A DNA stretch of 64,000 nucleotides from Amphiura filiformis (Eukaryota > Echinodermata > Ophiuroidea > Amphilepidida > Amphiuridae), in the NCBI RefSeq assembly GCF_039555335.1, contig NC_092637.1, positions 3,374,472 to 3,438,471 of the forward strand, given 5' to 3'. Under the pieces are notes generated by a model that saw nothing but the letters and a program-made list of their open reading frames with translations, had not been told where the DNA came from and ran no database searches. Below, piece by piece: positions 2,629 through 55,300 of the stretch; the first letter of the stretch is position 1, and every line of letters begins with the position of its first letter. The translations under genes were made by a program, and so were the position numbers.

Positions 2629-5600
2629 CTTTTCTCATGAAAGGTTGTGCTGATTTTTCTTCTTCTTTTATTTCGTCTGTCGATTTGTTAATTTTCCGTG
2701 CTAGAACTGCGCGCTGTTGATCAATAAGCTCATTTGGATTTGCCATAGGGTTCTTCTTCATGTTAGCAAATGTACAATGATCAACAATCTTGGCAATAAC
2801 GTCATCAGAAAATGTGTAGCCTAAGAAAGTCATGATCTTAATGACGACACTCTTCAGATCCTAACAAAGTAGATACACGAAATGTCAATATTATCGATGA
2901 CGTCATAATTGCATGAAATATCAATCCACACCACGTGTAATCATGAGAATTGAAGACCGAATTAAAAAGACTCGTTTGCGTATGACGTCCTGTAACCAAT
3001 CACGTCGCGCCTTTGCCCTGACGTCGGACGCAAACTACTGTAGTCTTTTAAATTCGGTCTTCAATTATAGCGCCACTCTGTAAAACAACACCAATATTTT
3101 ATTCCGAGTGATCTGAGGCAGATTTTAAAAAGGTCTGCTTATGAGATCCCAGTGGTGGGTTTAAATTATTTTGTTTATTTTGGTTTATAACAATGATTGA
3201 CAAGTGCTTTAAAAACGACAACGGTGTTAACCATGCCACTAAAAGTGTAATACTCTTCAGAAGGTAAGGTTTCATTGACACCCAATATCATATGGAAAGG
3301 TTTCTATACAAAAACGATTCTCTTTTAAACCATCTGTGCACAGTTTCCACCTCGATACATCTGAGTACACATTTTCGTCCAAGAACTTCCGAGCAAGCAG
3401 TGAATTGTCTCCACACTGTCTTTGATTACACTGCACGGTTGAGTGCATAGCTGGAAAATGGGCCTCGTCAAAACCTTATTCCCAGTATTCCCTTCATTCA
3501 ATCAGAATTTTCTTTTAACGAACGAGAGCTAACACTTCTCCCTACAAACACTTTTTCTCATCAGGTCAACAGATAACGCAATTCAATGTTTATAGCAAGG
3601 CGAATATGGTAAATATGTAGAATGAAATATCCAATTCTCTTTTTTTACATGTAATCAATATCTATGGACATTCATGACCTGAAACTGCGTGTGATCCAAT
3701 CGTATTTTATTATTCAATTGGAGGTCAGTAATATCTCACACTTGGAGACATTAAATATCTCTTTTTAAGGTTGTACGGGAAATTCAATTACCCGAAGTAA
3801 AATACCAATGATTTCATGCATTTTGCTTGAAAGATGATTGAAAATGTATCTTCCGCACTTGTTTTAATGTGCTTGTTTGCGCGTTAATTAAGAAACGATA
3901 TGCAATGTACAATTACGCGCTTTGCGGTCACTTATTTTACAACTAATAAAATATGATTGGACCACACGCATCGCGTATATTTATGAGATTATGAATTTAA
4001 GCTATAACATTCGCTGAGGAGGACGCCCGCAAAATTTTTCAAAATTCTGTTTTTTTACACGACTGTAATGTACTTTATTGAAAGTAACATACCCTGCAAA
4101 AATGACTTTTGGTGCTGTAGTTTTGACCAACACAGTACGTACATGACGTGCGGGACGGTCTCACACACATCAAAGGACCGCGCCATAGCACGACCGACGG
4201 AGTGATACGCATTGGTGACAAATGTCTTTACTTTACCTCAGTTGTTCGGTTCAAAATTAAAAGTGGACATATCTCACAGTAAAAGCTAACATCTTATGGC
4301 AAAGAAATACTAATCCAATTATTATGGAAATGTTAAAATAATTATGGCTTTAAGTTCCTTGAATACTAACATCAGTAAAGCCAAAAATAAAGCGTAATAA
4401 AATCGGAACGTTGGCAATGATGTCGTAATACTATGAAAGAATCCATAGATTTTTGTTGAACATCAAACACAATGTTTTATTTTGATATAAGAATAACGAA
4501 AGCATACCCGTATCATCTCTTCGTACTTCAAGAAGAGAATGTTTGGTCCGTGTCTTCTGTTCCAGTAGTAAAGGTAATGATCCCACCATGGACCACAATA
4601 AACTGTAATATTCAAAATATCGCTCAAAATACAAAATACTCTGATTGTTGAAATAGATTCTACGAAAAATATTGGGCTATTCCAGGTGAAATCCATATAC
4701 CACCTATTGAAGACCGTTATTTACCACATGATCTTAGGCCTATAGGACCATTTACTGCCAATATAAAATGATTACTTTTAAGGTGGCATTATCTTTTGTA
4801 AAAAAGTCTCTTTGGTGAGAGGAATCTTTTTCAAATTTTACATCTGTTAATGTAAAATTTGAAAAAGATTATGTGAAAAATAATACAACGTCAGCTCTTA
4901 ATGAAATGGCTCAAGAAATCATAATTAATCAAAAATGTAACAATCATTAATGTTCATTAACAGTTTAAAAAGATATTCAGAGATGAATTTTAGGCTAGTT
5001 TGTTCTGCTTTTAAATTGGCAAATTACTGACAATCCCTCGCTACTTTGCTTAAAATAAAGAACCACAAACCCACCTTTTCCAGATCTAAAGTCCTCAAAA
5101 TATTCCTCCCAAGATGAGTAACTGTGCAATGAAGGCACAGTATTATGGAAATGGAAGTACGACACAGCCAAATCCTTAGGATTTCTAGCAACATAGACAA
5201 CTCTAGACTTCTTCTTCATGACGTCAGGTGGCAGTAGATGTCCTGGTAGGTGAGATTTGATGGTACGAGGGGACTTCATCTTGTCTACTATTTCATATGT
5301 TTCTGGGACTTTTATATCCTGCAAGTAAACTACAGACTATAACAAAAATGTATACAATTTCAAGTTTGCTTTTCATAACAAAATAATAGGGTCATAGCAA
5401 CAATAATAATGCATTGGAATCAGTAATATCTAGGTTATAAGTTTGAACTTGGTTTTTTACTGGTTCGGGCTCAAACGCTATGCTCAATTAACTAAATCAT
5501 CCAGAAAACGAGTTGGGCCACTTTTAACATGAGCTCGCATATCAAATATTCAGAAAAAATACAAGCGAACAGAAATTACAAGATGTCATGGCACAAGCGA

Positions 5601-8600
5601 ACAGATATTACATTCGGGGTTTGTGCTACACCAATTTCTCTCGCCTGTGTGTATACTAAGTCTGTGTAGCTTATAAGTATAACCGTATATGATAAGGGGA
5701 TAATCCTGAATGATGAGCGGCATTGCGCAATGAACAGTGTAGAGGTATAGGTAACTAACTCGCTCCGTAGCCACATGAGTTGATATAGCTCAGCGGTTAG
5801 AGCATCGCTTCAGGAAACACGTTCGTGCAAATGTTTTCCAGTCAGAAACTAGACATAAACTAGAGGGCGCTATTACTGTACTAAAAATATGTTATTATTC
5901 ATGATGAACGCATTCAGTTGAACTCGAAATTATACTGATATTTATTACATCAAAATACTAGTATAAAATGGTTATGAAAAAGTTTATATAATTATATTTG
6001 TGACAGTAAAAGTAAAGTATAAGTGCTCAATCCCAAAAGGGAGAGCGTATAAAAATTCAAAGAACAGACCTTCCAGAATAGGTAGTCGTTACTATGTAGT
6101 AGTTTCATGCCTAAAAAGGCAATCGTCAGACGACACGATGAAATGCTTTGGGTGGACTACCATCTCTTGGGAATGTGAAAGAATATACATTCCATGGTGT
6201 CAACACAGCCATAACACACGTTATCTCAAAAGACAATATTGCTAAGACAATATTGTTCAAGGTTGCGCCGCAGGCTTATAAAGAGAAATGTTGCTCCAAA
6301 AACAATAGCAAACAAGCTTAAACTATAAATTAGCCCCCGATAGAGGGCAGGGCCTGAAGAATGAGGGAAATTATAGGGTAAAGAGTAAAACAAATGTAAA
6401 AGTAGGCCTATGAAATGGGTGACGAGCTGTCAGTTCGTCATCCTTAAGGTTACTCTTGCTTTCTTGCCCTGCGGGGCCCTTATATTGGGGTCCCACTTGG
6501 AGTGTTTAGTCGCAAACAGATCGGAAGAGCGTCGTGGAGGGCAAGAGCGTAGACCTCGGCCTTGATGTTTTTGGTTGATACTGGGCCCCAGCATCAACAA
6601 ACAACAATGAGTAACCTTAAGGGTGACGTGCTGTCTCTAATTTAAAAAAAAAATAACCTTAATGTTAAAACATTGAGTAACCTTAATGTAACGACCTTGA
6701 AATGTAACTTCTAAAAATACTAGTTTTTATATTCCATAGTGTTATATTACCTAAAATATTTCGTCACTACGTTGAAAATACGTTTTAAAGTGAATTTATA
6801 TAGAGGTTGGTAACAAATCGGTCGTAGCATTAATAATCCCAAAAAAGAACTTGCTGTGGAAAAATCTTCAATACGGCATATTATGATCATTTTTATCATC
6901 ATCATTATCGTCATTTTCGTCATCATCGTTGTTGATGTTTACCTCAGTAGATGTAAACATATGGGCCTCCATAAACGGTACACGTAAAAACGTATGCGAC
7001 AGACTGAGTTTAGATAAATCACCGTCGTTGCATATTGCTGATAGGATTTCTTGCGTCCATGTTGTACCTACGAAAAAAAATCAATATACATCATCATGAT
7101 CATAATCAGATGTTCACACCCGGATGTGAATATCCAAACAATACTACTAGGACAGTTTGGTACAGCTGCCGATTAAAATCCTACATTAAACTAACTATTT
7201 TGGGTAGCAAAGTTGCCCGAACTGTTCCGTATTTCTCTCTGTAGAAATACGTAACTTTCTGGAAAGAATATAATTAGACCTAAGTTTTAATACTATAAGC
7301 AGGCCAAAAGATCAAAAAAGGATCAGTAACCCCCATTGAAGATTCTGAAAACCACTCATAATACCATGATAACCATCCCCTACAATAACCGTGCTCGTGT
7401 TTTCGAAAGAGTCAAGAACATTTCAAACTCTTCGACATTTCTACCGCGTTTAAACCGGTATACAAATTACGTGAATGAAATGAAACATGAATGAAAATAT
7501 GAATATATGAATAGACAAACAGTCCAACTTGTGTTTACGGTTTTAAGTTTGGGGAGCCGGACTGTACAAATGAAAAAATCTAGATGAAACAAAGCAATCC
7601 TTCAAAGCTCGAATAGTTCTACTGACTGGCAACCGGATTCCACTATATATACACACTCACGCAAAAACATCCGGACACCAAATTGATACGAAGGATATTA
7701 TCATACTAGATCGTGAGTAGAGGTGGTTTGAGCGAGTAGTTCGAGAACCTATTTAGCAACTGGAATCCAGTCGATTTTAGGAAGCAATGTGGAAATACAG
7801 ACATTTCTTTATTGACAATTTAGGACGTGCATTCATTTTCTGGAATAGCACATTATGATATTCAGAATACGCCAAACACGGTATTACCTGCTTTTGGATA
7901 CGTGATAATAAATGCATCATCAGGTCTAGCTTGCCATGTCTTCATTGCTTCTAATGTGGATGGTGGAACTAAATGGGTTGGAAACGGAATGCCGTCTAAT
8001 TCGTAATAGTCATCGTTTGGAACCAAAAATAACCCGTTTTCCCCAATGAGCTTTTCAACTGGAAAACAAATGTGAAGAATGAAACAAAAATACTAAATAG
8101 TATTTGATTGTAAATACAGGATGAGTCAAAAAAAGTGCAATAGAGCAAAGAATCGATATATTTATGTAAGAACCAACTTGAACTTTCTCATTATTGAAAG
8201 TTTATATAAATGCCACACTCAATAGTCACCTTCTGTGAAAAAATGAAGTGAATCAAAACTATCAAAACATTTGAAAAACCGCCTACAAATTTTTATGTTT
8301 TTGATAGAGAATAAACAGCTTTAAAGTAAAGGTAAAATGAAAATAACAACAAAAATGTTTCTTCTCCTTAAACAAGACCAAGGACAAACTCTTTGGGTGC
8401 TCCGTTTTATTTCAATGCCAATGAGGTTTAGAAAATGGCAGTTGTTCCAAAGCTACCTTACACAGAGTAGGCTGACATTCAAATTTTAGATGTCTCTTGG
8501 ACAAACATATTAAAATTGGGTATCGCTATAAAATGTGTCATAAAAACAAAACGGTAAAAGCAAATTCCTTGATTTTTTTCACACAAGGTCACTAATAGAT

Positions 8601-10665: not shown

Positions 10666-11263
10666 AATTTGACTTGTTTGTTTGAAAACTACGTACTTCA
10701 ACAGTCTTGTCCATTTATGTACTAGATAAAAAGTGGATTGAATATGATATCATAATTTGCAGTTTAGGTTTGTTTTGAAAAAGACCAAGTTAACTCGATA
10801 GCCTATAATAATGTAGGTACGGGGTTTACATGTAATCGACAACGTCCTGACAACGAATTTGACTTGTTTGTTTGAATACTACGTAATTGAACAGTCTTGT
10901 CCATTTATGTACTAGATAAAGTGGCTTGAATATGATATCATAATTTGCAGTTTATAGTCTGATCAGCTCGTAATAGGCGGGAAATGTTAGGCTTTTACCA
11001 CTACGCGGAAGAGTATACCCGCATTAAGAGTGATGACATATAGTGTTCTGGTCTACAATTTGCGTGTTAAAGAAAGTAGACTAAAGTAAAGGACTGTAAT
11101 TAATAATGGTTTTTGCGAGGTGTCACCATACAATTCTAGCAATAAAATGTTTTGATATTAATACGCGATGTACAAGGCCCGCCAATAACGAGCTGATCAA
11201 AGTATAGGTTTGTGTTGAAAAAGAAAACCTATAATAATGTAGGTACGGGGTTTACATGTAATC
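10504..11263 (-). repeat. Tandem duplication, about 190-200 bp units (2 full, third interrupted)
   Basis: Units start with CTTGTCCATTTATGTACTAG at 10504, 10706 and 10896. The third is split by a 250-bp MITE (10955-11204), continues at 11205-11263, is split again and resumes at 14198 with TAATCGACAACGTCCTGAC. Confidence 0.85.
10955..11204. mobile_element. MITE family M1, 250 bp, TA target site
   Basis: The ends TAGTCTGATCAGCTCGTAAT and TACTTTGATCAGCTCGTTAT (inverted) are terminal repeats. The uninterrupted tandem units read TTTAGG at this point, so the insertion duplicated TA. A relative lies at 22788-23040 in inverted orientation. Confidence 0.85.
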
Positions 11264-16372: not shown

Positions 16373-24681
<8,309 letters not shown>

Positions 24682-27246: not shown

Positions 27247-27729
27247 TACATGTTAAGGTGCCAATATGGCAAATAAAACAATAGACACGGTGGTCAGCAC
27301 TTTTAGCAGAAAAAATAACGAACATTTTTATATTCTCTCTTTTCACTGGCTATCGACAAATCGACAAAAATATATACACCAAGAGAGAACAATACATCGC
27401 AGAAAAAACAACTTTTTAAACCTATATTGAATTGTGTGCAAATCAAAATGCACGTGGTGTTGCGCACACTTCAAAATAGGCAGGGGTCAGAGTATTTCCC
27501 ATAATTCCTTGCATATTTGGAGGCGTAGCGCCCTCTGGAAACGTAAACGTAAATTTACTCATACGGTGCGAAAAGTATAAGAAGAGTTCCATCTGTGCCA
27601 ACTGCTTCCCTAAACACTCTCGGCGACCTATAAACAAAAAATAAACAACATTGAAAATTTGATTTTTTGTGTGTTGTATTGGTAACAAATAAAAGCACCC
27701 AGGTTATATTTTGGATTTTTGGTTTTGGT

Positions 27730-27890: not shown

Positions 27891-28582
27891 TTTGGCTAGA
27901 AATGGGTTCTTTGCCCTTTTTCTTTTCCTTTGCCCTCCTGATTTTCTCTTTCACTTTTTGTCAGAGGGGCACTTTTTCTTTCATTTTTTGTCAGGGGGGC
28001 CTCTGCCCCCCCCCCCTGATATTTTAAAAATATGCAGGGGGTGTTTTGATTTTCTTACCGATTGAAAATGGAACCAATTCGTCTCTGCGTACAATACAGC
28101 CTTGCTCGTCAAGAAATCTTTCTGGTCGAAACTCCGCTGGTTTATTCCAAATGGTTGAGTCATGATGAATCGCCCAAATATTCGGCATGACGATTGTACC
28201 TCTTGGAATATCATATCCATTCAGTTTGGTATCGACATTAGTGGCACGCGGCACACTTAATGGTAGAATGCTGCTCATACGTTGAGCCTCCATTATTGTG
28301 GCTTCCGTGTATGGAAGATTTGGCCGGTCTTTAAGGCTTATCATACGGTTTTTACCGACAACCTGATCAAGCTCTTGTTGTACACGTAATTGAATGTTTG
28401 GATCCAGCATCATATACAGCAGTGCCCATTTTGTAGTTGTAGCAGAAGTTTCAGTTCCGGCAGCAAACAGGTCACCCAGGCATCTTATAAGATCTTCGTG
28501 ATCAAACGCTTCTTCTAAGTCATTCTGATGCTGTTGGTGATCTAAATACATATCTATGAAATTTTGTGGTTGGTTGGGTATA

Positions 28583-29028
28583 GACCTTTTTCTGATGACG
28601 TCACCTAATCGATATTGGGGTCTGAGATGTAAACAAACAACACGTGCGTTTCTCACGTGTCCACGGTGTAAAAACACCAAATACTGCGTATTTCCCCTCT
28701 GTTTTGTCATATTTCACTTTAGCTTCCATAAAATAATTGTTTAAACGGACTCTGTATACTAGTTACCTTTGTTCCAGTTTGTTTTGATGCCATAAAATAC
28801 AAAAGATACGGAAAAACCGCGATGCTATTTAAAATTCAATCTTTGTTTTTGTTTACTTTTTACACCGTGGCGAACTAAACGCGTACTGCGAGCTGGCAAT
28901 TCCGCGCAGGACGCCTAGCGTGGTGCAAAGTTGATCGCGCGCGCCGGCGCGGTATTTGCGTTTGGGTGCTGATGACTCGAATGCTGGACCCCAATATCGA
29001 TTGATTGGTGACGTCTGAGAAAAAGGTC
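28583..29028. mobile_element. 446-bp foldback (MITE-like) element inside P450 exon 2
   Basis: The two ends are inverted copies: GACCTTTTTCTGATGACGTC reads inward from 28583 and GACCTTTTTCTCAGACGTC reads inward from 29028. The match continues through ATCGATATTGGGGTC. TATA flanks both sides (28579-28582 and 29029-29032), consistent with a target duplication. The element has no transposase reading frame. Removing it plus one TATA leaves the P450 in frame. The superfamily is uncertain. Confidence 0.85.
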
Positions 29029-29459
29029 TATATAGTCTTTTTCGTTTTCCTTTACCATCTCTCTGAAAAATTCTCCAAATTCTGTATTACCTGTAAGCTC
29101 TCTGGTGCCACTGAATGGAATGTATTTTAAAAGAAGAATGAAGGTAACAGCTCCAGCATAGGAAGCAATTTCAAAAATTCTGTTAAGTAAGCGTAGTAAA
29201 CGGCGGAATTTTGGATCTTCATAATCATATCGTTTACCGAATGCCAAACAACAAAGTACATTTGAAAATGCAGCTTCAAGTAGTTCAAAAGGACAAAACG
29301 GGTTGGATCCGTATGTAGTAAATTTATTTAAAAGTCGTTGGATCTCAGCCACTATTTGCTCTTCAAAATGAAACCTTCCCATCCCCAGAGCTCATAATGA
29401 TGCCATCGCAAATCGACGACGAGATATTTGTGCCTCACTACTGTGGACCATAACCAGAC

Positions 29460-29975
29460 CTTAAATAACCAGAAAACAATCAGTTTATATTTTTAGGTGC
29501 TGCTGTAAGGGGGTCATTAAATAGTTGTAAGTTTTTCATAATTTTGACCTAAACTATCTTTATATAGGGTATTTAAATAAATACAGAGCAATGCGACACA
29601 GTCTTTAGAAAATACTGAAATTATGAAGTGCCTGGGTTCTGGGCGAGATAAGTCAATCAATAGCATTTTAGTCCATTTGTCATTCCTGAACCTAGAAATA
29701 TACTTTCCTATGACGTTTTTGTGTTGATTTGTGATCACATGGGGTACTATAAAAATTTCAACTTGGTTGCTAAAATTGCAAGTTTGGGCAACTCTGATAA
29801 TTTACATAAATCCAAAATGGCTGCCGGACGGCATCTTGAAAATTCAATTTTGAGCCACTTGCCCTAGAATAACGTATAAGACCCTTTTCAAGGGGGTTTG
29901 GGTATGTATAATCTATTTCAAGGTCTAGGTCTAGGAAAAAGATCGAATAATATCATACATTATGTCAATTCTTAC
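29460..29975. other. P450 intron 1
   Basis: No element was recognised in this intron. Confidence 0.5.
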
Positions 29976-30351
29976 CTTTTTCTCTTGCCAATTGAGTAAG
30001 AACAATCTCTGGTCGATCATCAAACTCATGTCCCTGTTTCACAAAAGCCTGACGAACTGAAGCGTAGTCGTTCAAAAAAACGACAGGAAAAGATCCGAAT
30101 TTGAGGCTTATAATAGGACCGTATGTCGTAGATAATTCTGCAATAGTGCTGTAAGGACTAACGCGATCCAGGGTGGCCAAGTGGCCGAGTATGGGCCACC
30201 AGGCTCTCGGACCTGGCGGGGTGTTCCATTTCTGGCGAGACTTAACAAGAAGATAAGCCATTAGGAACACAATGATTGCCAGTAAAATGGTACGAACGTT
30301 AGTCGTCTGCCACTCAAGAAACCTAGCAACAATGGTTGTTATGAACGCCAT

Positions 30352-31135: not shown

Positions 31136-31335
31136 NNNNNNNNNNNNNNNNNNNNNNNNNNNNNNNNNNNNNNNNNNNNNNNNNNNNNNNNNNNNNNNNN
31201 NNNNNNNNNNNNNNNNNNNNNNNNNNNNNNNNNNNNNNNNNNNNNNNNNNNNNNNNNNNNNNNNNNNNNNNNNNNNNNNNNNNNNNNNNNNNNNNNNNNN
31301 NNNNNNNNNNNNNNNNNNNNNNNNNNNNNNNNNNN
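31136..31335. other. Assembly gap, 200 N
   Basis: Exactly 200 N, which suggests a fixed-size scaffold gap rather than a measured length. It sits at the boundary between unique sequence and the satellite array. Confidence 0.98.
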
Positions 31336-49300: not shown

Positions 49301-52300
49301 ATCATGTTTAATGAAATGTGCCAATTTTGAGATTGCATAGGCCTAATAATAAAGGTCATTATCTAGAATGCTCACAATGATCGGTGTTTGTTTAACTGAA
49401 AAACAACATTTTGAATTGTTTATATTTTCTTTCTTTTTCGATCAAAATAATGACAATCATGAAATAACCCTGAACTTGCACACCAATCATTGACCATGTT
49501 AGTTAAAATATTATTGATTGATGTGTCCTATACATTGCGCATGTGTCTTTTAATGTGAAATTGGACTTGAACTTGAAACATGTTGAACAGCAAGTGACAT
49601 TTGCACTTTTATTCTTCCTTCTTTTTTAATGCATTATTTTCCTTTTACTTAGATTTTTTGTTTTATCTTCTTTTATTTAATTTTGGCATTTTCTTTCCTA
49701 TTTTGTTTTGGTTTCGTTTCTTTGTTTCTTATATCTTTTATTATTATTTTTTTTTTGGGGGGGGTCTTTAATGACTTCTTTTTATTTTTATTTGCTTGAA
49801 ATCTTTGAAGTTTACTTTCGTGGGGTCAGGAATTACTGGTTTGGAAGGAGAAGTTTGGCAATGCATTGGACATAGGGTGGTAGATGTCGTTGCATTATTT
49901 TGCTATCTACTGCAGATAGCATTGACAAATTTGCACCCCACATCCGTGTGATGTTTGATTGACGGTGCCCTTAGTGTTATAGCAAATATAAAAGATAGTC
50001 CATGATTGTCCAAAAACATTGTCAACTTTTTAGCTATTCAAATTGCTATGTTTTAAACTGTTTGGGGATATGTATCAGGTATTTTACGTCTTATTCGACT
50101 TAAATTATTCAAAATTTGATGAAAATATATGTTTAAAGTGACCGATCCCTGAAATATTTGTGGATGTAATGTAATATTATTTATTGCATGTGTTCCTTAT
50201 TATATATAAACTAACATGTCTAAGTTTCATTTAAATCGCTCTACTGGATCTGAAGTTATGATCCCAAATGTGAAAAAGCAAACACTGATTTTAGAATTCC
50301 TCAGACAATCTCAGAAAATATTGTTCGAACACTTTAAAGGCCTTATTGGAAATAGTCCCCTTCTACCCCCGTACAATGTTGGCATACCCAATATGCTCAT
50401 CTTCACATATCTTCTCCCAACATTGATTGGTGGGGAAAGGGAGGGATATGCTTAAGATGAACATTGAGAGAACTCTATTATAAATCTTAGTTTCCAGTGA
50501 CTCATATAGCGTGCGCGCTATACTAATGCACATATCAAATGCAACCCCCGGCCCCTGGGGACCGGGGATGGCCATCGTGGGCCGTGGTTTTTGGGTTTAA
50601 AGTTCAAGTCCCGGGTAAACACCTGGCCAGTCCCGGACCCACCCGGGCAAAACTCGAAGCCACTTCCCGGCCCCCCGGGGCGAATATCCGATGCAAACCG
50701 ATGCAAACCCCGGGTATTCCTCGGCCCGAGTTCCCGGCCCTGAGCACCGGATATAGGCTTGGATCTTAATATGGTTTTAATATCGCGGCAATCTTTTCAT
50801 GCGGGCTCAAAATTCGTGGGATGATGTCTTCAATGGACTGCCAAGCTCTGGACATGCTGGGTGCATTCAAACGCTTCAAATATATGCCTACATGTGTGTT
50901 GCAAATACGTCAGGTACTTACCTTGTTGCAAAACATCTAAAATGATAAACGTAATTAGGCTACGTAGATTCTCGTCAATAGCGCAGAGCAGCGTAATTCT
51001 TTCCTTTCCTTCCTATTAGGTGTAGGCCTACTTGCTTTACTGTTTGAGTATCAACGCACGGGCTTCAACGTGTACAGTTTACATCATAGGCATGGAATCA
51101 AAAATTTGTTACCCTTTATTTTGCCACAGTTTTGGGGTACATTTCAGTGATGGTGGTGCATAACTGGGTGGGTTTCAGTGGAGACTAATGCACCCAACTG
51201 GATGCCCATTTACGACCAAAATGTTGCTGAGTATGTATGGAGCTCAGAAAGGCAAATAATGTAGGCTGAAACCATTTCATGGTTCAGCAAAAACGCTGCT
51301 TACACGGCGTAAGTCCGATTATGAATACACGTAAAGTTGGTTAGCATGGTTAGAAGGCAATTAGATACATGTTTCAGATTCGGACTATCAGTTTTTCATA
51401 TTCGAACTATTGAAGTATGTCTCACATTCAAAAGTGAAATGTCAGATGTTATAGGCCTACTGTTTCCACTTTCGGACTAACGTCTATTAACGTCTAGCGA
51501 CCCTTTTTCGGACGAGCGCACCGTCGAAGGAATTTTACGTTGCATTATATCAATGTCGGACTCAATCACCCGACTTTCCCACTTAGTCATTTCGTGTATT
51601 TTTCATGCTTTATAGTGGCAGGGGAACGGGACAAGTGGGGATCCTGTGTGCCATCCATGCTTGTTTTAAATATTACGAGGCATGAATGGCGGGTCGGAAA
51701 ATGCCGGGAATAAACCAGAAATATCATATTGATATCACTAGGAAGATTTAGTTCAGATAATGACATTTTCTTGACCATTTCTTGACTTTTCTTAACTATT
51801 CATTAAAATTTAAATAAAAAAATAGTTAAGGAAAGTCAAGAACTAGTCAAGAAAATTACCAAATCTTGAATAAATCTGAACAAATCTTCCCAGTGTATAG
51901 GACGTACATGTAGGTCTATCCAAAATGCAACTTCTAATTACAATGAGGCTATTCTGTAAAGGCCCATACCCCATCCAAATAGGCCTACCTTGAATATTGT
52001 TTAAAATCAAATGACCATCTATCAAACTTTTGGCGAACAAGTTATAATATTTTGTTTCACGAGGTTGCCATTTTCGATATTATTTAAAACATCCTTTGAC
52101 GATTCGTGATTAATGATAACTGCTCCAAAAACGATCACAGATGTCACAAAAGTATCGTGGATTCTTTTATTATCACGGTTTGTTTTGTTTTTGTTTGTAG
52201 ACCTAATAATTTAAAACTTTACTCTCGGCGGGTGGTTAAAACTCGTAAAAAAATAACCAATACATTGGCATAAATAAGCGTATTGCAGGCTCTCGTTTTT

Positions 52301-55300
52301 GCGTGCATGTCAATAAGCCAGTGTGGTCTGGTTAAACATGCTAACTTTCGAGCCCCGTTAAATAACAGATACTACATGGCTTACTGCAAAATTTGGAAAC
52401 AACAGCCAAGATTTTGTTTTTGGAATGGATTTAAATGAAGAGTAACATTAATGTGGCGACTCAGTGGATTATTAATATACATCCACGGCTCAAGTACGGC
52501 CAATTGATAGGATTCCTCGGCCCATAAATGTGGGCATCCTTACTAGCAAACCACGGCAATGTGCACGGCCCAATTTACTGGTTTGAAACCCTTAGTTACG
52601 ACATAACCCCTGGCCCTCCCGGGTAAAGTCCCAGCCCAATTTCCCGGGGTTTTGGCCGACGTCAAGTCTTATACCAGTCCCGGCCAACACCCGGCTCCCC
52701 CCGGGACACATTTTGAGTCAAATCTCGGGTCACATAATGTCAAGTCCCGGACCACCCCCGGGTCCCCAGGGGCCGGGGTTGCATTTGATATGTGCATAAG
52801 ATGAACATGGGAATTACAGTGGGTGTTCGAACACATTTTTTCCGGGATTGTCTACAAAATTGCTTAGCAAAATCATCTGATTTTAGTTTTTGGACAATAA
52901 CTCTGCAGTTACGCCATCGATTTTAATGCAATTTGGCACATATGTTAGAAACATAATTTGCTATCATCCCACAAAATATGGAGGAAATCAATAGCGTTCT
53001 GTTAGTATAGATTTAACATAGCGTTTTGTACACACAAATACAGGCCTAAATTATTTATGTGCCATGTTTATTGAGCATATGTACATGTGGTATAATTAAT
53101 TTAGAGAAGGTGTTAAAATTTTATATTCAGCTAAAAACAGACATTACTCGTAAATTTAATGTTATGTATTTAAATGTCACAAATGTACCACTGTGTGATA
53201 AATCGGGGGGGCAGAGAGAGAGAGAGCGAGTGATAGGAAGGAGAGATACGCACAGGCTATGCACATTTATTGTTTTTAAAAACATTGCTTGACCAACATT
53301 TAAGAAAATCAGCCTAATGTGTGAAATTGTGTTCATTAAACATTTTAAATACACCATGGTTCAGATGGTCAAATGGTGAATCATAACGATTTACACACAT
53401 AGACAAGCACGCATTTCCAACGATTCACCATATAATAGAAAAATAAATCCTATTATTCTTTATGTTTTGTGGTCAACCGTGCATAATGTGTGTTTTCAAT
53501 GGGGAGATGTGCAATGATTTACCTTTACCATGAATAGGCTTTCACACTTTTAGTGTACACAGTTATACGCACTGAAGAGACAACGCAAATCATGTTTAAT
53601 GAAATGTGCCAATTTTGAGATTGCATAGGCCTAATAATAAAGGTCATTATCTAGAATGCTCACAATGATCGGTGTTTGTTTAACTGAAAAACAACATTTT
53701 TGAATTGTTTATATTTTCTTTCTTTTTCGATCAAAAATAATGACAATCATGAAATAACCCTGAACTTGCACACCAATCATTGACCATGTTAGTTAAAATA
53801 TTATTGATTGATGTGTCCTATACATTGCGCATGTGTCTTTTAATGTGAAATTGGACTTGAACTTGAAACATGTTGAACAGCAAGTGACATTTGCACTTTT
53901 TATTCTTCCTTCTTTTTTAATGCATTATTTTCCTTTTACTTAGATTTTTTGTTTTATCTTCTTTTATTTAATTTTGGCATTTTCTTTCCTATTTTGTTTT
54001 GGTTTCGTTTCTTTGTTTCTTATATCTTTTATTATTATTTTTTTTTGGGGGGGGTCTTTAATGACTTCTTTTTATTTTTATTTGCTTGAAATCTTTGAAG
54101 TTTACTTTCGTGGGGTCAGGAATTACTGGTTTGGAAGGAGAAGTTTGGCAATGCATTGGACATAGGGTGGTAGATGTCGTTGCATTATTTTGCTATCTAC
54201 TGCAGATAGCATTGACAAATTTGCACCCCACATCCGTGTGATGTTTGATTGACGGTGCCCTTAGTGTTATAGCAAATATAAAAGATAGTCCATGATTGTC
54301 CAAAAACATTGTCAACTTTTAGCTATTCAAATTGCTATGTTTTAAACTGTTTGGGGATATGTATCAGGTATTTTACGTCTTATTCGACTTAAATTATTCA
54401 AAATTTGATGAAAATATATGTTTAAAGTGACCGATCCCTGAAATATTTGTGGATGTAATGTAATATTATTTATTGCATGTGTTCCTTATTATATATAAAC
54501 TAACATGTCTAAGTTTCATTTAAATCGCTCTACTGGATCTGAAGTTATGATCCCAAATGTGAAAAAGCAAACACTGATTTTAGAATTCCTCAGACAATCT
54601 CAGAAAATATTGTTCGAACACTTTAAAGGCCTTATTGGAAATAGTCGCCCTTCTACCCCCGTACAATGTTGGCATACCCAATATGCTCATCTTCACATAT
54701 CTTCTCCCAACATTGATTGGTGGGGAAAGGGGAGGGTATATGCTTAAGATGAACATTGAGAGAACTCTATTATAAATCTTAGTTTCCAGTGACTCATATA
54801 GCGTGCGCGCTATACTAAGATGAACATGGGAATTACAGTGGGTGTTCGAACACATTTTTCCGGGATTGTCTACAAAATTGCTTAGCAAAATCATCTGATT
54901 TTAGTTTTTGGACAATAACTCTGCAGTTACGCCATCGATTTTAATGCAATTTGGCACATATGTTAGAAACATAATTTGCTATCATCCCACAAAATATGGA
55001 GGAAATCAATAGCGTTCTGTTAGTATAGATTTAACATAGCGTTTTGTACACACAAATACAGGCCTAAATTATTTATGTGCCATGTTTATTGAGCATATGT
55101 ACATGTGGTATAATTAATTTAGAGAAGGTGTTAAAATTTTATATTCAGCTAAAACAGACATTACTCGTAAATTTAATGTTATGTATTTAAATGTCACAAA
55201 TGTACCACTGTGTGATAAATCGGGGGGGGGGGGCGAGAGAGAGAGCGAGGGATAGGAAGGGGGAGATACGCACAGGCTATGCACATTTATTGTTTTTAAA

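Follow-up and report, generated by a model that had tools for sequence, protein, structure and literature searches.

The 64,000-nucleotide stretch of Amphiura filiformis DNA that was analysed, referred to below as the window, contains in its left half a three-exon gene on the minus strand, which is, to judge from its sequence, a cytochrome P450 of the CYP2 clan, laid out as follows:

29976..30351, minus strand: P450 exon 1, 376 nt, open from the ATG to the donor GT at 29975
28059..29459, minus strand: P450 exon 2, 1401 nt as it stands, with an inserted element, and 951 nt once that and one TATA are taken out
27443..27627, minus strand: P450 exon 3, running to the stop codon and carrying (FSI)GRRECLG, the heme-thiolate motif

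All four exon pieces match the Pfam family PF00067, with E-values from 5.3e-9 to 6.4e-61. The assignment to the CYP2 clan follows from the relatives of solved structure: the piece of exon 2 downstream of the element is closest to human CYP2R1 (E 4.6e-46), followed by CYP2B, 2D6 and 1A2 chains, and for the upstream piece a CYP2B comes first (E 2.6e-15). When the exon is read as an empty site, AGTETS, EAQR, FRPERF and the heme-thiolate sequence, all of which we take to be P450 motifs, are present, the last of them (FSI/GRRECLG) spanning the junction of exons 2 and 3. Across all three exons this empty-site reading is free of frameshifts and has a single stop. Another frame is available where exon 2 starts: it begins with SGYGP, as many P450s do at that position, but read by eye it stops at once, and the spliced phase-1 frame was kept since its reading runs on into RRRFAMASL. 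Neither an empty allele nor a paralogue that could serve as an empty site was seen in the window, the best tblastn match outside the gene having an E-value of 0.084 in a search carried up to E 1.

Exon 2 is interrupted at 28583-29028 by a 446-bp inverted-repeat element of MITE-like appearance, whose parts and immediate flanks are:

28579..28582, no strand: left-hand TATA, probably one copy of the duplicated target site
28583..28622, plus strand: left terminal inverted repeat, GACCTTTTTCT...ATCGATATTGGGGTC, with TGACGTCA at 28596
28661..28674, plus strand: sub-terminal inverted repeat arm CCACGGTGTAAAAA, complementary at 14 of 14 positions to 28857-28870
28857..28870, minus strand: partner arm of the sub-terminal inverted repeat, pairing with 28661-28674
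28987..29028, minus strand: right terminal inverted repeat, aligning with the left one at 86% identity over 43 columns
29029..29032, no strand: right-hand TATA, part of TATATAGTC, probably the other copy of the duplicated target site

The two terminal arms are about 40 bp each, and a local alignment of the outer 100 bases of the two sides scores 64, whereas 1000 single-base shuffles of both reached no more than 23. An exact search of the 64 kb for GACCTTTTTCT-N2..4-GACGTCACC gave two hits, one at each end of the element and none elsewhere, the average over 100 shuffles being 0.00. By both measures the inverted ends are far beyond chance, and the inverted ends with TATA on both flanks that had been described in the sequence-only reading are borne out. 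The element folds into a hairpin more stable than any of 100 shuffles, both as DNA (z -6.2) and as RNA of the coding strand (z -7.5; none of 100 shuffles equal in either case). It has no coding capacity, the longest stop-free stretch in six frames being 57 amino acids, and its GC content is 43%, compared with 37% in the left 31 kb of the window. A perfect TGACGTCA is found once, in the left arm, and CACGTG twice inside the element; we claim no function for either.

The borders of the element read ...GGGTATA/GACC...GGTC/TATATAGTC, and the coding sequence on either side provides an independent measure of what was inserted. Removal of 450 bp (the element and one TATA) from the 1401 bp of exon 2 leaves 951 bp, which is divisible by three and joins exons 1 and 3 in phase 1, as had been proposed from the letters. 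Duplication lengths of 1 to 6 were tried for their effect on the frame. An assumed duplication of 2, 3, 5 or 6 breaks it and brings in 12 or 13 stops; one of 4 keeps the frame and leaves a single stop, as does one of 1, for which the flanking letters give no support. The joined translation of exon 2 aligns to human CYP2R1 (E 1.6e-62) with no gap at the junction, the closest gaps being of one residue each and more than 10 residues away on both sides. Searched apart, the two pieces both reach the CYP2C9 chain 1og2, where residue 139 (of 141) of the first falls on chain residue 233 and residue 3 of the second on 239; a single Tyr codon bridging the two would give this spacing. The coding frame and the gapless protein alignment together fix the total inserted length at 450 bp, a neat example of a reading frame settling such a measurement, and they support the earlier description of a clean insertion into a coding exon. 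How these 450 bp are divided is ambiguous, because TATA is its own reverse complement: an element of 446 bp with a TATA duplication and one of 448 bp (AGACC...GGTCT) with an AT duplication yield the identical sequence, with 450 bp removed in both cases, so that the duplication may be 4 or 2 bp long.

If the element were of the Tc1/mariner type, with a TA duplication and a second TA gained by later slippage in TATATA, the difference from the explanation that we prefer would lie solely in the family of the element. The flanks here are TA repeats, and TA duplications are general in that group according to PMC10045372. Removal of the 446-bp element with one TA, however, leaves 953 nt and a broken frame with 12 stops, so that a further 2-bp change is needed, and we consider this origin unlikely.

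The reading of exon 2 as an empty site brings out a second lesion on the coding strand, about 360 bases upstream of the insertion:

29392..29394, minus strand: second lesion, an in-frame TGA stop facing Arg in the displayed CYP2 relatives

The TGA (29394-29392) is codon 23 of the exon 2 reading. It faces Arg in every alignment displayed for the upstream piece (5e58, 5e0e and 6csb, three of 42 matches) and in both alignments of the joined exon (3c6g and 3czh, both CYP2R1). A change of CGA to TGA, which we take to be a common CpG change, would explain it. The insertion had been thought to lie in a working frame; as the sequence stands, this part of the claim is not supported, the same exon carrying a TGA where the displayed CYP2B, CYP2D6 and CYP2R1 chains have Arg. 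In the same stretch, Gln stands opposite a Trp of 5e0e and 3c6g, the Trp of helix C. In comparison with human CYP2R1 and other CYP2-clan P450s, the present copy thus differs in being broken by the element and the TGA and in having Gln for this Trp.

Apart from this the gene is in good condition, so the TGA may stem from a sequencing error or represent a rare allele or a change of very recent date. On that basis, and in line with the sequence-only reading, the insertion might be clean, recent and possibly polymorphic in a functional gene, with the TGA an error or a rare linked variant. The continuous frame and alignment of the empty site, the presence of a single other stop and the retention of the catalytic motifs are all compatible with this, as is the ratio of observed to expected CpG, which is 1.48 in the element, compared with 0.90 in the P450 exon sequence and in the left 31 kb, and gives no sign of CpG decay. 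The TGA at a position where the displayed relatives have Arg and the replacement of the helix-C Trp in the same stretch speak against it, and we regard a functional gene as quite unlikely. The proposal of a clean insertion into a working gene calls for a check of the whole exon: with the second nonsense lesion, what looked like a possible functional polymorphism reads as a dead copy.

As given, the P450 copy lacks an open reading frame on account of both the TGA and the insertion. The protein would end at the TGA, ahead of the element, and any reading begun past the TGA would meet a stop at 28917, inside the element, and never reach the heme-binding Cys of exon 3; because of these two stops the copy would yield no functional P450.

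A rescue by splicing the element out as an intron appears unlikely from the splice sites present. Only six in-frame, stop-free GT-AG pairs exist between 29060 and 28560, the best with a summed score of -6.7, compared with 6.8 and 3.3 for the gene's own donors and 4.2 and 7.7 for its acceptors in the same matrix, a home-made one. An intron with GT-AG borders, named beforehand as the observation that would speak against an insertion, is disfavoured on this evidence, all six open pairs being poor by the home-made score. Taken singly, 29014 and 28621 are fair acceptors and 28766 is a fair donor on the coding strand, so that aberrant splicing of the transcript is possible. These sites are also what could be cited for an introner-like role, in which the element would act as a new intron, be spliced from the mRNA and spare the frame. 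Introners carry or recruit splice sites, and examples with 4-bp duplications and inverted ends exist, one of them from Symbiodinium, as described in PMC9860276. The element, however, ends in TATA/GACC...GGTC/TATA and not in GT-AG, and the upstream TGA stays whatever the splicing, which makes such a role extremely improbable.

Taken together, these observations very probably reflect the insertion of a MITE-like element at a TATA in exon 2 of a CYP2-clan P450 copy that also bears a nonsense lesion and is either a pseudogene or, in the assembled haplotype, a null allele. A non-autonomous cut-and-paste transposon, moved in trans by a transposase encoded elsewhere, would have inserted at the TATA in exon 2 and duplicated it, and the P450 copy, whether a pseudogene or the null allele of the assembled haplotype, would make no functional protein. 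We infer the mobility of the element from its anatomy, and either lesion may have come first. The copy is lightly damaged, broken at two places, and either probably lost recently or a null allele; the most likely case is an ordinary one, a dead gene copy carrying a transposon. Gene-finding programs would be likely to split such a P450 or to invent an intron around the element.

A search for relatives of the element in the window revealed no second copy: blastn (E up to 10, without a low-complexity filter) gave nothing longer than 35 bases beyond the element itself and its own arms. The best side matches were 27 bases of the inner part at 1289-1314 (88.9%, E 0.007) and 18 bases of an arm at 24120-24137 (17 of 18, E 0.081). 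Each arm was also slid without gaps along the left 31,130 bases; among the four best placements listed per scan, none other than those in the element itself matched at more than 23 of its 40 or 42 letters. The arm patterns were found in none of the contigs of a viral collection, which says nothing about the host, and in one contig of a collection of prokaryotic genomes, from Actinoallomurus, a match that we took as chance in a collection equally uninformative on the host. Open-licence papers, judged by title and opening lines of the abstract, gave us no recognisable account of this element, nor of a CYP2-clan gene with a MITE in one of its coding exons.

The left 31,130 bases contain six TATA-flanked pairs of inverted ends that agree in 11 or more of 15 letters, where 20 first-order resamplings gave 0.65 on average: the element itself, 1226/2052, 26628/26789, 10953/11206, 22674/23072 and 25325/25528. 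For 1226/2052 and 26628/26789 the likeness continues outside the TATA, which is then not a flank. The pair 10953/11206 has the look of a short element whose ends differ. These six pairs do not show that a transposase is shared. The short inverted-repeat element at 10953-11206, with ends like GTYTGATCAGCTCGT, has a second copy, 76% alike, at about 22786-23034; TATA stands at both ends of the former and at one end of the latter.

The window contains several other repeats and gene fragments. Its right half, from 31336 to 64000, directly after a gap of 200 N (31136-31335), is a tandem array with a unit of roughly 2.0 kb, with 15 anchor positions at spacings of 1999-2026 but for one interrupted step, and self-matches of 96-99%. 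One satellite unit is broken by an element of about 2270 bp at 50527-52796 with inverted ends (TGCACATATCAAATGCAACCCC...; 92% over 50 columns including flank) and TAA on both sides; 13 places have the exact preceding 40 bases, and the 12 others are empty, with a single TAA. By the length of its duplication, and by that only, this element is Harbinger-like. In the left half, two sulfotransferase exons (PF00685) lie in opposite orientation at 5073-5320 and 20246-20493, with 78% identity as protein and 75% as DNA, and a long (ATT)n microsatellite of about 83 copies occupies 24306-24552. Two adjacent reading frames at 18933-19705, the first with WLRYVDDTF, have no Pfam match at 0.01; the WLRYVDDTF frame looks, we presume, like a Penelope-like reverse transcriptase.

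The element had been called a Foldback element, a name that is too strong. Foldback elements in the strict sense have inverted arms of great length, made up of short tandem repeats. The arms here are about 40 bp, no tandem array was found within the element at a TRF score of 150, and its direct repeats amount to a single two-copy repeat of 18 nt; Foldback in the strict sense was set aside, and MITE-like fits better. Elsewhere in the window, a larger inverted repeat at 1148-2125 has arms of about 220-230 bp that are 86% alike, and an inverted copy of its stretch 1304-1845 lies at 6219-6796 (79%); with its longer arms it is closer to Foldback than the element at 28583-29028.

The element shares with MITEs its shortness (446 bp here), the lack of coding sequence, inverted ends, a short direct duplication of A+T only and the capacity to form a hairpin. 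Terminal inverted repeats, a target site duplication and no transposase of its own were all found. High copy number is another defining trait of MITEs. On its anatomy, the most fitting name for the element is a MITE-like non-autonomous DNA transposon, a class assignment made on traits other than copy number.

Its ends and duplication were compared with published descriptions of superfamilies and led to no assignment to any of them. A transposon family that has yet to be described, TATA-specific, with a 4-bp duplication and outside the named superfamilies, seems very unlikely; an observation that bears on such a family is that the element with different ends at 10953-11206 is likewise flanked by TATA on both sides. 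Among the named groups, according to PMC10045372, Ginger1 and piggyBac make duplications of 4 bp and MuDR of 4-10 bp, and piggyBac ends are CC..GG, in contrast to GA..TC here. Sola2 elements of two amoebae have 4-bp AWWT duplications, according to PMC3627910; the 4-bp, A+T-rich duplication is alike, but TATA is not AWWT. ISL2EU, of the PHIS superfamily, makes AT duplications within A/AT/T targets in PMC4482050, and the element, if read as AGACC...GGTCT, would share the AT duplication; its site is T/AT/A and not A/AT/T, and the transposase is absent, so ISL2EU was set aside. Other PHIS groups remain compatible by length, because PHIS as a whole makes either no duplication or one of 1-4 bp, as given in PMC10045372.
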